This document shows, piece by piece, positions 18,262 to 42,821 of a DNA stretch of 64,000 nt. The notes below the pieces were generated by a model. It did no database searches. It was not told the DNA's origin and saw nothing but the letters and a program-made list of their open reading frames with translations. Position 1 is the first letter of the stretch; each line of letters opens with the position of its first letter. The position numbers and the translations under genes are program-made. This stretch comes from Pseudanabaena galeata CCNP1313 (GTDB taxonomy: Bacteria > Cyanobacteriota > Cyanobacteriia > Pseudanabaenales > Pseudanabaenaceae), in assembly GCF_029910235.1 (NCBI RefSeq), contig NZ_CP112874.1, positions 2,294,001 to 2,358,000 on the forward strand, written 5' to 3'.

Positions 18262-18346
18262 AGAGCGCTTTGCACTTAAATCCAAGCCAAGGAAGTTTTT
18301 AAAAGCGTTGCAAAGCAACGCTTTTAAAAACTTCCTTGGGGTAAAT
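18262..18346. repeat. Palindrome with AAAGCGTTGC core, after dps
   Basis: CCAAGGAAGTTTTTAAAAGC pairs with its complement around GTTGCAAAGCAAC, preceded by GCGCTTTGCACTTAAATCC. Same core as 9979, 19757 and 24122 but a different outer stem. Confidence 0.65.
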
Positions 18347-24054: not shown

Positions 24055-24205
24055 TATAGCAATCCTAAATAGGTTGTGAGAGTGCGCCCCTTCGGGGCGC
24101 ACTCTCAAACTTACAGAAATCATCAATCAAACAAATCAAAATATTTTTTGAAAGTGTTGCTTTGCAACACTTTCAAAAAATATTTTGATTTGTGTTTGGG
24201 CTCAA
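24055..24205. repeat. Truncated TATAGC repeat followed by AAAGTGTTGC-core palindrome
   Basis: TATAGCAATCCTAAATAGG and GAGAGTGCGCCCC-TTC-GGGGCGCACTCTC (to about 24110) lack the usual right end. A perfect palindrome follows: CAAATCAAAATATTTTTTG with its complement around AAAGTGTTGCTTTGCAACACTTT. No gene occurs in the 380 bases before folB-rnhA. Confidence 0.6.
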
Positions 24206-24300: not shown

Positions 24301-25215
24301 ATGACAAGCAAAATTTATTTAAAAGGCGTAAGAGCCTATGGATATGTAGGATATCTTCCTGAAGAAAATGTATTGGGGCAGTGGTTTGAGGTGGAGGGTA
24401 CCCTATGGGTAGATTTTGAGCAATCTACCCATAGCGATGAAATTGAAGATACGGTTAACTATATTTCCTGTATTCGCAAGATTGAGACTTTAATTCAGAC
24501 GCAGAAATTTAAATTGATTGAGAGATTGGTTGGGGCGATCGCTGACAGCCTACTCGAAGACACAAAAATCTCTCAGGTCGAGGTGAAGGTCATCAAGCAT
24601 CCGCCAATTCCAAATTTCTTAGGTTCAGTTGCTGTGGAAATTGTGCGATCGCGTTCTCAAATCACCTCTAAAAATGCAACTACAAAATTAGAATCAGCAC
24701 CAGAATCCATAAATTTTCCTCAACCCAAAACAATCCCTAACGCCCAATTCCCAATCCCCAGTTCAACCGAAGCTAAAATCATCAGCATCCACACTGATGG
24801 AGCCTGTTCCAAAAATCCAGGGCCTGGGGGTTGGGGTGTAGTTGTTCATTTCTCTGATGGTAGTACTAAAGAACTGGGCGGCGGTATTCGTGAAACTACT
24901 AATAATCAAATGGAACTACAAGGAGCGATCGCAGCTCTAGAATTTCTCGCCAGCCATAAACAATCCACGCCTGTCGATCTCTACACTGATAGTAAATATG
25001 TTCTAGATGGCATTACCAAATGGATCAAGGGTTGGAAAAAGAATGGTTGGAAAACTAAGGATAATAAGCCCGTCAAGAATCAAGAGTTTTGGCAACAACT
25101 CGATCCTCTCAATACTGCAAATATTCGATGGCATTGGGTAGAAGGACATTCTGGAGATCCTGATAATGAGCGATGCGATGCGATCGCTCGCAGCTACACT
25201 GCCAAGTATATGTAA
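24301..25215 (+). CDS. Dihydroneopterin aldolase - ribonuclease HI fusion
   Basis: A 304-residue protein joining two unrelated enzymes. Residues 1-118 are a FolB-like aldolase (folate pathway): Glu21/Glu22 in LPEENVLGQ, Tyr54 in DTVNYISC and Lys99 in [10 protein letters not shown] are the expected active-site residues. Residues 158-304 are a complete RNase HI: Asp166 in [18 protein letters not shown], Glu205 in NNQMELQGA, Asp230 in YTDSKYV, His283 and Asp293 in [15 protein letters not shown]. The linker (about 119-157) is proline-rich and encoded by CCCAATTCCCAATCCCCAG-like DNA that resembles dispersed cyanobacterial short repeats. The frame is continuous. Both halves look catalytically intact; the fusion itself is unusual. 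Confidence 0.88.
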
Positions 25216-25475: not shown

Positions 25476-25612
25476 TTAAGAATCTCTAGCTCTTTTCGCC
25501 TGTTGTCGCCATTCCTCTAATTTCTCTTCGGTAATGGGATTTTTTCCTGCCTTTAGCTCCTCAAGCCACCCTTTTACTTCCTCATCTCCAAAGCTTAGAT
25601 AGTCAGCACCTT
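25476..25612 (-). pseudogene. C-terminal remnant of an unidentified gene
   Basis: About 45 codons are open to a stop at 25476-25478, with a convincing protein-like, charged sequence (LSFGDEEVKGWLEELKAG, KLEEWRQQAKRARDS). The upstream part is missing because the truncated transposase of 25595-25984 joins it in a different frame. Family unknown. Confidence 0.45.
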
Positions 25613-25984
25613 CTGCTTAGAGTCAGTCTGATTGGTCACAGTACATTTGATGCTTTTGCCATCCATCGCCAGCCATTGTCCTGATTCTCCTGTCTGGCTA
25701 TTTTTACACCACTCGTTAAACAGTTTCACGAGTGGTTCGATTTCTACTCCCTGAATGACACGGCGAAAGGTTGAATATGACGGGATTCGGCTCTCGGTTG
25801 GTAGCTCTAGCATTGTTTGCAGGGTTCCCCAATGTTTCTCACAAAAATCGGCTAATGGGCGATATCCGTGATAGCCACACAATACTTCCAGCAAGGTTAA
25901 GCACATTACTAACCATAGTGGATGGCGTTTACCTTTGCTTTTTCGATGGTCTGGGATCTGCTTTAATTGTTCTATAAAGTTCAT
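25595..25984 (-). pseudogene. Truncated ISAs1-type (H-repeat associated) transposase
   Basis: The 129-codon frame begins MNFIEQLKQIPDHRKSKGKR with LWLVMCLTLLEVLCGYHGYRPLADF, the N-terminal region of ISAs1-family transposases, and reaches AMDGKSIKCT, which holds the first catalytic Asp. After QTDSKQ it runs out of frame into unrelated sequence, so about two thirds of the enzyme is missing. A 10-base inverted repeat (ATGGTCTGGT at 25983-25992 and ACCAGACCAT at 26014-26023) overlaps the start codon and could hide it from ribosomes. The remnant should be inactive. Confidence 0.75.
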
Positions 25985-39581: not shown

Positions 39582-42500
39582 ATGCCTGAGATCGTTACAG
39601 AAACTTACAATGCCAATCAGATCCAAGTACTTGAGGGTCTAGAAGCAGTTCGTAAACGACCTGGGATGTATATCGGCACAACTGGGCCAAAAGGATTACA
39701 TCACCTCGTTTTTGAGGTCGTTGACAACAGCGTAGACGAAGCCCTTGCAGGACATTGCGATCGCATTTTAGTTGAGCTTCTGCCCGATGGCTCTGTACAA
39801 GTCTCCGACAATGGGCGCGGTATCCCCATTGACATTCACCCCAAAACTGGTAAATCAGCCCTCGAAACTGTACTGACTGTTCTCCACGCTGGTGGTAAAT
39901 TCGGCGATGGCGGCTATAAAGTATCAGGTGGTTTACATGGTGTCGGAATTTCCGTAGTTAATGCCCTATCGGAATGGGTGGAGGTATCAGTATGGCGCTT
40001 GGATACAGTCTATACCCAAAGATTTGAGCGCGGTTTTCCTGTTAGCGATCTCATCCCTAGCAAGAGTCAAGAAACAAGGCGCGGTACACAGGTGCGTTTC
40101 AAGCCTGATCCGCAAATCTTCACTACTCAAACTGAATTTGAATACGACATTCTCGCTAGCCGCCTCAAAGAGCTTGCCTATCTCAATGCTGGCGTAAAAA
40201 TCGAATATTGCGATCGCCGTGGTGCAGAACTTCGCACCGATATCTATTGTTATGAAGGTGGTATTCGCGAATACGTCGCCTACATGACCCGCGACAAGGA
40301 ACCGATTCATACTGACATTATTTATGTGAATGGTGAACGCGATAATGTGGTGGTGGAAGTTGCTTTGCAATGGTGCATTGACTCCTACAACGATAATGTT
40401 CTCGGTTTTGCCAATAACATCCGCACCATTGATGGTGGTACGCACCTTGAGGGTCTAAAAACGGTTTTGACCCGCACAATGAATGCCACAGCACGCAAGC
40501 TGAAAAAGCTCAAAGATGGCGACTCAAATCTGGCTGGGGAAAACGTCCGTGAAGGTCTAACGGCGGTGATTTCGGTCAAAGTTGGCGATCCAGAATTTGA
40601 AGGGCAAACTAAAACTAAACTAGGCAATACTGAAGTGAGAGGTATTGTTGATTCCTTTGTGGGTGAAGTTCTCAATGAATATCTTGAGTTTCATCCTGCG
40701 GTGGCAACTTCGATTATTGAGAAAGCGCTACAAGCCTTTAACGCTGCGGAAGCCGCCCGTCGCGCCCGTGAGCTAGTCCGTCGGAAATCCGCCCTAGAGT
40801 CTTCGACCTTACCTGGAAAGCTTGCCGATTGTAGTTCTCGCGATCCCAAAGAATCCGAAATCTTCATTGTTGAGGGAGATTCTGCAGGCGGCTGTTTTGA
40901 GGGTGACACGCTCGTTGCCTTAGCTGACGGACGAAATATTAGTTTCAAGCAACTGGTAGAAGAAGAACAGTCTGGCAAGCAAAACTTCTGCTATACGATT
41001 CGCAACGATGGCACGATTGGAGTTGAGCGGATTATCAATGCCAGAATTACTAAGCAAAATGCTGAGGTAATTCGTGTCACTTTAGATAATGGTAAGCAGC
41101 TAATTTGTACGCCTGATCATCCTTTTATGCTGCGCGATCGCACCTACAGGGCGGCGGCTGAACTGACAACTGAAGATTCTTTAATGCCGCTCTATCGCAA
41201 GCTTTCCAGTAAAGCAGATAAGGGTATTACCATTGATGGTTACGAGATGGTGTGGAATCCCAAATCTGATGGTTGGTTGTTCACGCACATGATCGCAGAT
41301 TGGTATAACCGCTATCAAGGTGCTTACCAAGCCGAAGATGGAGAACATTGTCATCATCTTGATTTCAATAAACTTAATAACAATCCAACTAATCTCAAAC
41401 GTTTACCAAAGTTAGAGCATTTGCAATTGCATCAAGTTCACATTGCCAAAACCTTGCATCGTCCTGAAGTCATCGAGAAATGTCGTCAATTAAAAACTAC
41501 GGCGGAATTTCGCGATCACATGAGTCAGAGAATGCAAGAACCTGCAACCAGAGAAATCCTCTCGCAACAGGCAAAAGCACAGTGGCAAGATGCTGAATAC
41601 AAAGCCTATATGACTGCGAAGTGGCGTGAATTTTATGAGGGCAATCCTGATTATAAACAACAAAATTACCAGCAGTTAGATCAAAGTCAGCGCGAATATT
41701 GGAGCAATCCTGAACATCGTCAGCAGCAATCTACAAGAACAAAAGAATTTTTCGCCCAAAATCCTGAAGCAAAACAACGTTTATCAGAAATTGCCCAACA
41801 ACAATGGCAAGATAGCGATTTGATCGATTGGCGGCGTGTAAAAACTCAAGAGCAATGGACAGATAGCTTTAGGGCGAAACGTAAAGCTGCCTTGCAACAA
41901 ACCTACTACCGCAAAACCTTAGCTGCCCTTAAGCAAGTTGCAATTGAGAATGGTTGTCTTGATTTAGATGCCTATCGTGCTCATCGGATTGATACCCGCG
42001 ATAAATCTCTTCTGAAATTTGAGACATTCTGCGATCGCTATTTTGAAGGTAATTCTGAACTTGCGATTGAGGCGGTTGCTAATTACAATCACCGCATTGT
42101 CAAGATTGAGAATCTAACCGAGCGCATTGATGTTTATGACATCGAAGTGCCAAACACTCACAACTTTGCGCTTGCTAGTGGTGTATTTGTACATAACAGC
42201 GCTAAGCAAGGACGCGATCGCCACTATCAGGCAATTCTTCCATTGCGTGGTAAAGTTCTCAACATTGAGAGAGCCGATGACAGCAAGATTTATAAAAACA
42301 ATGAAATCCAAGCCCTGATTACAGGTTGCGGGTTGGGGATTAAAGGTGAAGACTTTAATGAGTCCCAACTGCGCTACCACAAAATCATCCTCCTTGCTGA
42401 TGCGGACGTTGACGGAGCGCACATTCGGACATTGTTGCTGACATTCTTCTATCGCTATCAGCGAGAATTGCTTGATCGCGGCTTTATCTATATTGGATGT

Positions 42501-42821
42501 CCTCCACTATATAAATTAGAGCGTGGTAAAACCGCTCAGTACTGCTATAGCGATAACGACTTACAGAAATTAATTGCCACCTTCCCACCCAATGCGAATT
42601 ACAACATTCAGCGCTTTAAAGGTTTAGGCGAAATGATGCCTCAACAGCTATGGGAAACGACAATGAACCCAGCCACGCGATCGCTCAAACGTCTCACCAT
42701 CGAAGATGCTGCCGAAGCCGATCGCATCTTCACGATTTTGATGGGTGATAAAGTTGCGCCACGCCGTGAGTTTATTGAAACCTATGGTTCCAAACTAGGA
42801 CTTGCGGACTTGGATATCTAA
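39582..42821 (+). CDS. gyrB: DNA gyrase subunit B precursor containing an intein
   Basis: GyrB supplies the ATPase and TOPRIM parts of gyrase, which supercoils DNA. The ATG at 39582 (MPEIVTETYNANQIQVLEGL) is preferred over the frame start 18 bases upstream. Extein motifs: VVDNSVDEALAGHCDRI and DNGRGIPIDIHPKTG (ATP site), GLHGVGISVVNALS, and TOPRIM EGDSAGG and DADVDGAHIRTLLL. A 435-residue intein (40893-42197) splits EGDSAGG from SAKQGRDR. Removal leaves a 644-residue GyrB, normal for cyanobacteria. The stop overlaps a strong hairpin. No gyrA or recF is adjacent. Confidence 0.96.
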   Translation: MPEIVTETYNANQIQVLEGLEAVRKRPGMYIGTTGPKGLHHLVFEVVDNSVDEALAGHCDRILVELLPDGSVQVSDNGRGIPIDIHPKTGKSALETVLTVLHAGGKFGDGGYKVSGGLHGVGISVVNALSEWVEVSVWRLDTVYTQRFERGFPVSDLIPSKSQETRRGTQVRFKPDPQIFTTQTEFEYDILASRLKELAYLNAGVKIEYCDRRGAELRTDIYCYEGGIREYVAYMTRDKEPIHTDIIYVNGERDNVVVEVALQWCIDSYNDNVLGFANNIRTIDGGTHLEGLKTVLTRTMNATARKLKKLKDGDSNLAGENVREGLTAVISVKVGDPEFEGQTKTKLGNTEVRGIVDSFVGEVLNEYLEFHPAVATSIIEKALQAFNAAEAARRARELVRRKSALESSTLPGKLADCSSRDPKESEIFIVEGDSAGGCFEGDTLVALADGRNISFKQLVEEEQSGKQNFCYTIRNDGTIGVERIINARITKQNAEVIRVTLDNGKQLICTPDHPFMLRDRTYRAAAELTTEDSLMPLYRKLSSKADKGITIDGYEMVWNPKSDGWLFTHMIADWYNRYQGAYQAEDGEHCHHLDFNKLNNNPTNLKRLPKLEHLQLHQVHIAKTLHRPEVIEKCRQLKTTAEFRDHMSQRMQEPATREILSQQAKAQWQDAEYKAYMTAKWREFYEGNPDYKQQNYQQLDQSQREYWSNPEHRQQQSTRTKEFFAQNPEAKQRLSEIAQQQWQDSDLIDWRRVKTQEQWTDSFRAKRKAALQQTYYRKTLAALKQVAIENGCLDLDAYRAHRIDTRDKSLLKFETFCDRYFEGNSELAIEAVANYNHRIVKIENLTERIDVYDIEVPNTHNFALASGVFVHNSAKQGRDRHYQAILPLRGKVLNIERADDSKIYKNNEIQALITGCGLGIKGEDFNESQLRYHKIILLADADVDGAHIRTLLLTFFYRYQRELLDRGFIYIGCPPLYKLERGKTAQYCYSDNDLQKLIATFPPNANYNIQRFKGLGEMMPQQLWETTMNPATRSLKRLTIEDAAEADRIFTILMGDKVAPRREFIETYGSKLGLADLDI
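40893..42197 (+). other. GyrB intein with HNH homing endonuclease
   Basis: This 435-codon in-frame insertion starts at Cys (CFEGDTLVALADGR, block A) and ends VFVHN followed by Ser (block G), so splicing should proceed by the standard Cys1/Asn/Ser+1 route. Block B is CTPDHPFML; block F is RIDVYDIEVPNTHNFAL. The middle carries an HNH nuclease motif (GEHCHHLDFNKLNNNPTNLKRL). It is followed by repeated helical units (EFYEGNPDYKQQ, EYWSNPEHRQQQ, EFFAQNPEAKQR) like modular DNA-binding motifs of homing enzymes. The insertion site is the one used by the Synechocystis GyrB intein. Confidence 0.95.

Follow-up and report, generated by a model that had tools for sequence, protein, structure and literature searches.

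A FolB-RNase HI fusion gene in Pseudanabaena and its apparently recoded relatives in sister genera

The genome of Pseudanabaena galeata CCNP1313 encodes dihydroneopterin aldolase (FolB) and ribonuclease HI in a single gene. This folB-rnhA fusion lies at 24301-25215 on the forward strand of the window, i.e. the whole stretch of 64,000 nucleotides that was analysed, and is an unbroken frame of 304 aa with an ATG start in the list of open reading frames. We consider it likely (probability about 0.8) that it is one bifunctional FolB-linker-RNase HI gene, descended from folB and rnhA genes that were neighbours, and supplies both activities, the two domains working independently on a tether. The joining of RNase HI to a metabolic enzyme is of a known kind; the apparently recoded state of the FolB-RNase HI pair in sister genera is unusual. 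A metabolic enzyme is here tied to a genome-maintenance nuclease across most of a bacterial family, which makes it a second case, after the RNase HI-CobC proteins, of an RNase HI joined to a vitamin-pathway enzyme. A literature search, thin in subscription journals, returned no paper on a fusion of dihydroneopterin aldolase with ribonuclease H, and none on folB together with rnhA in cyanobacteria.

The fusion gene, its domains and its linker

The FolB domain occupies positions 24301-24657 (+ strand, residues 1-119) and the RNase HI domain positions 24775-25212 (+ strand, residues 159-304), both supported by profiles and dN/dS and the latter also by Foldseek. Residues 5-114 match Pfam FolB (PF02152) with an E-value of 6e-30 and 104.5 bits for a cut-off of 31.8, and the NCBIfam folB equivalog TIGR00525 is passed with 88 bits (cut-off 72). 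Residues 161-298 match Pfam RNase_H (PF00075, E 6e-44), and the ribonuclease HI equivalog NF001236 is passed with 187.9 bits (cut-off 160). The residues E21, Y54, E74 and K99, which we take to be the FolB active site by reference to S. aureus DHNA, and D166, E205, D230, H283 and D293, presumably that of RNase HI by reference to the E. coli enzyme, are present in 31/31 fused proteins. The window protein is a FolB by its profiles over curated cut-offs and its active-site residues, and a bacterial RNase HI by its profile, four acidic residues plus histidine and RNase H fold. Profiles and residues confirm the original prediction that one frame carries active-site residues of both enzymes, and both enzymes are complete.

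AlphaFold2 models the protein as two folded domains in no confident arrangement (pTM 0.51), with pLDDT below 50 at residues 123-156. The best Foldseek match of the RNase half is E. coli RNase HI (E 3.6e-18, TMt 0.84) and the best 50 matches are all RNase H entries; the FolB half was identified from sequence. Within the genus, dN/dS is 0.045 for FolB, 0.027 for RNase HI and 0.59 for the linker, rough values because dS is near saturation. They were calculated as mean dN over mean dS from 25 of the 26 genus sequences (G010 left out), with 243, 294 and 298 usable pairs out of 300 for FolB, RNase HI and linker, respectively. Both domains are under purifying selection. Both enzymes look intact, and the protein is probably bifunctional. 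A genome-wide search for other folB or rnhA genes, as had been suggested, found the fusion gene as the sole FolB match and the sole RNase H above cut-off, with no second copy of either over cut-off in this genome. One further RNase_H match, at C1:1999700, stays below the cut-off with 21 bits, and RNase HII is also encoded.

The two domains are separated by a Ser/Thr/Pro-rich linker of 46 aa (24643-24780, + strand), placed by pLDDT and dN/dS and disordered by prediction. Among the 27 fusions with a long linker (the genus, g1, plus G005 of genus g4), 16 different lengths of 39-68 aa were found and the reading frame is kept in all of them; the linkers of genus g3 (G002-G004) are short, 15-21 residues. 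The linker is best modelled as a flexible tether, predicted to be disordered, that evolves fast and almost without constraint. An alternative is that RNase HI is also made on its own, from a start codon within the linker, the fused frame being only partly read through. In favour of such a start, the linker opens with GTG, TTG or ATG in 21/31 fused genes (the window genome has GTG), but 6/31 have none of these codons anywhere in the linker, 24/31 have none after its first codon, and the frame is kept through the 16 lengths of the 27 long linkers. Separate translation is therefore very improbable.

Within the linker, three tandem heptamers, CCCAATT CCCAATC CCCAGTT, span 21 bp or seven codons (24743-24763, + strand), an array equalled in 0/200 codon shuffles. 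With the motif of the original prediction as the consensus of the scan, arrays for which 0/200 shuffles were as good were found in 12/26 linkers of the genus and in 0/5 other fused proteins. They are absent from the outlier G005 and from G010, G015, G019 and G024, four genomes that a MutS tree places apart from the genus's main group of 20. The 14-mer CCCAATTCCCAATC has two copies in the genome (reversed-pattern control: 0), the other one being in a run of the same heptamers within a gcvP-like coding frame, so such repeats can occupy translated sequence. This second run, at L246:1464-1514 (G000:C1 near 82686), was assigned to a gcvP-like frame by eye. The linker of G018 exceeds that of G027 by seven residues, i.e. 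three heptamers. Given their presence in 12/26 linkers and the copy in the gcvP-like frame, the heptamers read as a later insertion or expansion, tolerated by the linkers and lengthening one of them, rather than as what caused the fusion. The short-repeat DNA that had been described in the linker is real; the idea of a repeat that replaced the intergenic region and so drove the fusion is rejected on the arrays' occurrence in 12/26 linkers of the genus and 0/5 elsewhere.

The closest precedent is the actinobacterial RNase HI-CobC family (Rv2228c, MSMEG_4305, SCO2299), likewise an RNase HI and a vitamin-pathway enzyme held by a variable linker. The linker is described as highly variable and both domains as under purifying selection in the available part of the source (PMC7466739). 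The partner there is CobC, of the B12 pathway, in C-terminal position; here it is FolB, of the folate pathway, in N-terminal position. The window protein has an E. coli-like basic handle, aligned to QWIHNWKKRGWKT, which Rv2228c is said to lack in the same available text (PMC7466739). Membership of the RNase HI-CobC family was rejected as the CobC domain is missing: the Pfam scan at E 1 revealed no CobC (phosphoglycerate-mutase-like) domain in the window protein. FolB is also known fused to other enzymes, in the eukaryotic folB-folK-folP proteins (PMC4224340) and in the FolK-FolB of Bifidobacterium longum (PMC1971073), as far as the accessible portions of these sources go. Those fusions join steps of one pathway, whereas the partner of FolB here has no pathway link to it. 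The portions available of two further papers (PMC5009743, PMC4921024) name neither FolB nor RNase HI.

Fused, adjacent and separate genes in cyanobacteria

All 38 genomes of the family, which is also the number in the order, gave a match in the search. The genes are fused in frame in 26/26 genomes of genus g1, 3/3 of g3 (G002-G004) and 1/1 of g4 (G005). The fused state in 26/26 genomes of the genus rules out a sequencing error at the window gene, such as a missed stop codon between the halves, and its extension over three genera of the family contradicts the recent origin that had been proposed. In g2, represented by G001 (a draft assembly, 74% complete), folB is followed in frame by rnhA, which is separated from it by stop codons and has an ATG of its own. 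In g6 (G033) and g8 (G036 and G037) the two genes overlap, each in its own frame, and are joined at nine consecutive A's (A9), and in g5 and g7 (two genomes each) they lie at separate places. The fused or frame-joined state amounts to 33/38 family genomes. Separate, adjacent, slippage-joined and fused versions in one family constitute a natural series on the origin of a fusion and, with four states of the same pair at hand, the idea of recoding as an intermediate becomes directly testable.

Among 80 loci from named genomes, 20 contain a FolB within the fetched stretch, fused in every case; this Pseudanabaena-like set overlaps the 26 genus genomes. The stretches fetched for the other 60 gave no FolB. 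In a sample of the class, 213/214 genomes gave a match and, among the matches listed, one genome of another family is fused (G056). Of 40 chosen rnhA loci of other families, folB was in the fetched stretch in four: G056, fused, and G105, G114 and G083, adjacent. In these last three, as in G001, rnhA follows folB and has an in-frame Met of its own. In G095 the genes are about 600 bp apart. Adjacent folB and rnhA in other families indicate that the neighbourhood preceded the fusion or recurs, as expected from a fusion of neighbouring genes. With G056 counted, the fusion probably occurred at least twice in cyanobacteria. A second RNase HI is present in G056 (46%), and G027 and G029 have a second, weak match of 32% identity. 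RNase HII was found in 36/37 family genomes.

A conserved C-terminal domain with the core ELADLMD..ASAVTSRG..W.WRNW is present in the same ORF in 33/40 RNase HI ORFs fetched from other cyanobacterial families (L171:2947-3879, L058:5550-5861, L056:5589-5897 and others) and in 0/12 family loci. Searched in genomes, it gave strong matches in 7/7 from outside the family; in 19 family genomes there was no match in 14 and a weak one (25-32% identity) in five. Six proteins, not all carrying the domain, contained no Pfam family for it, and its model, of modest quality (pLDDT 71), gave no fold match in the PDB at E 0.001. In G056 the domain is at G056:C18:507897-508166, in a separate frame of 103 aa downstream of the folB-rnhA fusion.

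The A9 junctions and the order of events

The A9 run that joins the folB and rnhA frames lies at L149:2590-2598 in G033, at L154:971-979 in G036 and, on the minus strand, at L155:2526-2534 in G037. The FolB frame of G036 and G037 reads GCT AAA AAA AAA TCC with a TAG ten codons past the run; the RNase frame is offset by -1 and becomes open only within the run, which its upstream TAA overlaps. The FolB frame of G033 reads TCA AAA AAA AAG TCG TAA and the RNase frame is again at -1. The shift must fall in a stretch of 40 nt in G036, 40 nt in G037 and 25 nt in G033, each with exactly nine consecutive A's, the first two of which are just ahead of the stretch in G036 and G037. A sample of 388 kb from these three genomes (240, 72 and 76 kb) contains five A9 or T9 runs besides the junctions, so that 3e-4 to 5e-4 occurrences are expected per shift stretch. 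G036 and G037 belong to the same genus, hence the A9 state stands for two lineages and not three.

The RNase frame has no ATG, GTG or TTG before the catalytic TDG in any of the three genomes: TDG is at codons 7, 7 and 39 and the first such start at codons 46, 46 and 54 in G036, G037 and G033, respectively. An ATC, a very rare start, precedes TDG in the RNase frame of all three. No other RNase HI match was obtained at E 0.001 in these genomes. Lacking a common start codon before the catalytic aspartate, RNase HI in g6 and g8 appears to be accessible only from folB, by -1 frameshifting or by slippage during transcription. Between G036 and G037 the RNase frame has dN 0.137 and dS 1.545 (dN/dS about 0.09) and FolB has dN 0.160 and dS 0.807; the RNase frame of this pair is under purifying selection. 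The features of a programmed frameshift or slippage site were thus found, the A9 in 3/3 genomes and selection on the downstream frame from the G036-G037 pair. As a candidate stimulator of frameshifting, the 60 nt downstream have a predicted fold with raw energies of -22.3 (G036) and -19.5 (G037) kcal/mol but hardly fold in G033 (-6.5).

The heptamer A_AAA_AAG is the slip site of E. coli dnaX, a case of -1 frameshifting, and is also contained in the FolB frame of G033. The dnaX shift shortens the product, whereas the shift in g6 and g8 would lengthen it and would be needed for any RNase HI to be made. Thermus dnaX slips on nine A's by transcriptional slippage, and nine is the length at which selection against A/T runs appears in many bacterial genomes, according to the available part of the study (PMC1088944). 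We give about even odds to the proposal that g6 and g8 make RNase HI solely by slippage at A9, one gene yielding FolB alone and FolB-RNase HI, and that the homopolymer acted as a stepping stone towards fusion. Ordinary frameshift errors or pseudogenes, i.e. an under-called homopolymer or a decaying rnhA, are an unlikely explanation of these junctions. A-runs are common sites of assembly errors and indel mutations, two of the three assemblies are drafts (150 and 190 contigs), and if the true run were an under-called A10, the three A9 genes would simply be fused in frame; on the other side stand the identical A9 and required shift in three genomes of two genera, the purifying selection on the RNase frame between G036 and G037, and another A9 run of G033 inside an intact frame of 385 aa, where A9 looks correctly called at least once. 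Transcriptional slippage at A9, a ribosomal shift and a true A10 would each give a FolB-RNase HI protein. For annotation, RNase HI could be overlooked in g6 and g8 genomes or labelled as a startless gene.

Recoded gene pairs with fused homologues, e.g. magnesium chelatase, were gathered in the GeneTack clusters, as the available text reports (PMC3711429). The A9 genes resemble these pairs in having two frames joined by a shift and in-frame fusions in relatives (PMC3711429, same available text). They differ, as far as that text describes the pairs, in that a single family here shows the genes adjacent, joined at A9 and fused in frame. Its available main text mentions neither RNase H nor neopterin (PMC3711429).

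Two trees bear on the order of these events. In the MutS tree (49 rows; G035 and nine further genomes are outside it), g3, g7 and g8 form one group (support 90) and g4 and g5 another (88). Forcing all in-frame fusions of the family into one clade on MutS costs 31 log units (AU p 0.021), and the AU test gave p 0.019 for the fused plus A9 genomes as one clade and p 0.158 for g1 plus g4, for groups chosen once the first tree had been inspected, and in the presence of long branches. The FolB plus RNase HI tree (45 rows) disagrees: in it the in-frame fusions of the family form one clade (81), with G033 next (88). Both trees require more than one change of state and, taken together, they allow one or several origins of the in-frame fusion, or fissions. 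Early in the Pseudanabaenaceae, neighbouring folB and rnhA genes would have come to yield a single product. Two routes would lead to the present states: the frames were first joined by a slippery A9 junction, which in some genera gave way to a true in-frame one, or the in-frame fusion came first, was broken at the A-run and is rescued by slippage.

Proposed function and reasons for retention

In the bifunctional protein, the FolB domain would act in folate synthesis and the RNase HI domain on RNA-DNA hybrids, each independently, the linker serving as a flexible tether that may tolerate almost any sequence. Coupling between the active sites is unlikely because the tether is almost unconstrained. 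FolB enzymes form octamers, so up to eight RNase HI domains would probably be displayed per particle, and the two activities would be made in fixed proportion, which may be of benefit.

Against a function for the fusion itself, 36/37 family genomes also encode RNase HII, so the cells may be able to do without RNase HI and the fusion may be close to neutral, and in four genomes (g5 and g7) the two genes are far from each other. It is somewhat less than an even bet that the fusion was near-neutral, a stop codon or frame having been lost between adjacent genes and the result fixed by drift, an account that is compatible with one bifunctional gene. Besides the genes held apart in g5 and g7, the nearly unconstrained linker (dN/dS 0.59) and the low confidence of domain packing (pTM 0.51) point the same way, and the same verdict was reached for the RNase HI-CobC protein MSMEG_4305, to judge from the accessible part of the report (PMC7466739). 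However, the fused or frame-joined state of 33/38 family genomes, and of the distant-family G056, suggests an advantage or else that neighbouring genes fuse easily.

An advantage might come from the octamer itself, making RNase HI multivalent and thereby more processive or better targeted, in replacement of the C-terminal domain. That domain's occurrence on 33/40 RNase HI ORFs of other families and on 0/12 family loci (L140-L155) fits such a replacement, as does the separately fused G056, whose domain is a separate frame of 103 aa just downstream. But g2, g5 and g7, with separate genes, are also devoid of the C-terminal domain, which means that its loss came without FolB fusion, and the fold of the domain is unmatched in the PDB; selection for a scaffold is an improbable origin of the fusion. 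Drift and fixed-ratio co-production are the leading reasons for the retention of the bifunctional gene, with a scaffold benefit possible.

A partnership with an operon or with neighbouring genes was rejected for the loci compared, in which no conserved neighbourhood was seen. These were 20 Pseudanabaena-like loci, with flanks of at most 5 kb and for some much less, plus six family loci. Among them, none of eight window neighbours recurred (tblastn, E 1e-8) except for response-regulator matches of 33-39% in two. Upstream of the fusion gene, at 24075-24200, are two near-perfect palindromes, one a GC-rich hairpin and the other long, AT-rich and built around GAAAGTGTTGCTTTGCAACACTTTC, in a region with a folding z-score of -13.8; a related copy, mismatched at two core positions, is at 18302-18324. 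Downstream, on the opposite strand, a transposase fragment of 129 aa (25595-25984) matches DDE_Tnp_1_assoc. Further along the window, gyrB (39582-42821) contains an intein: a match to Pfam Intein_splicing (446-872) separates its gyrase B part from its Toprim part.
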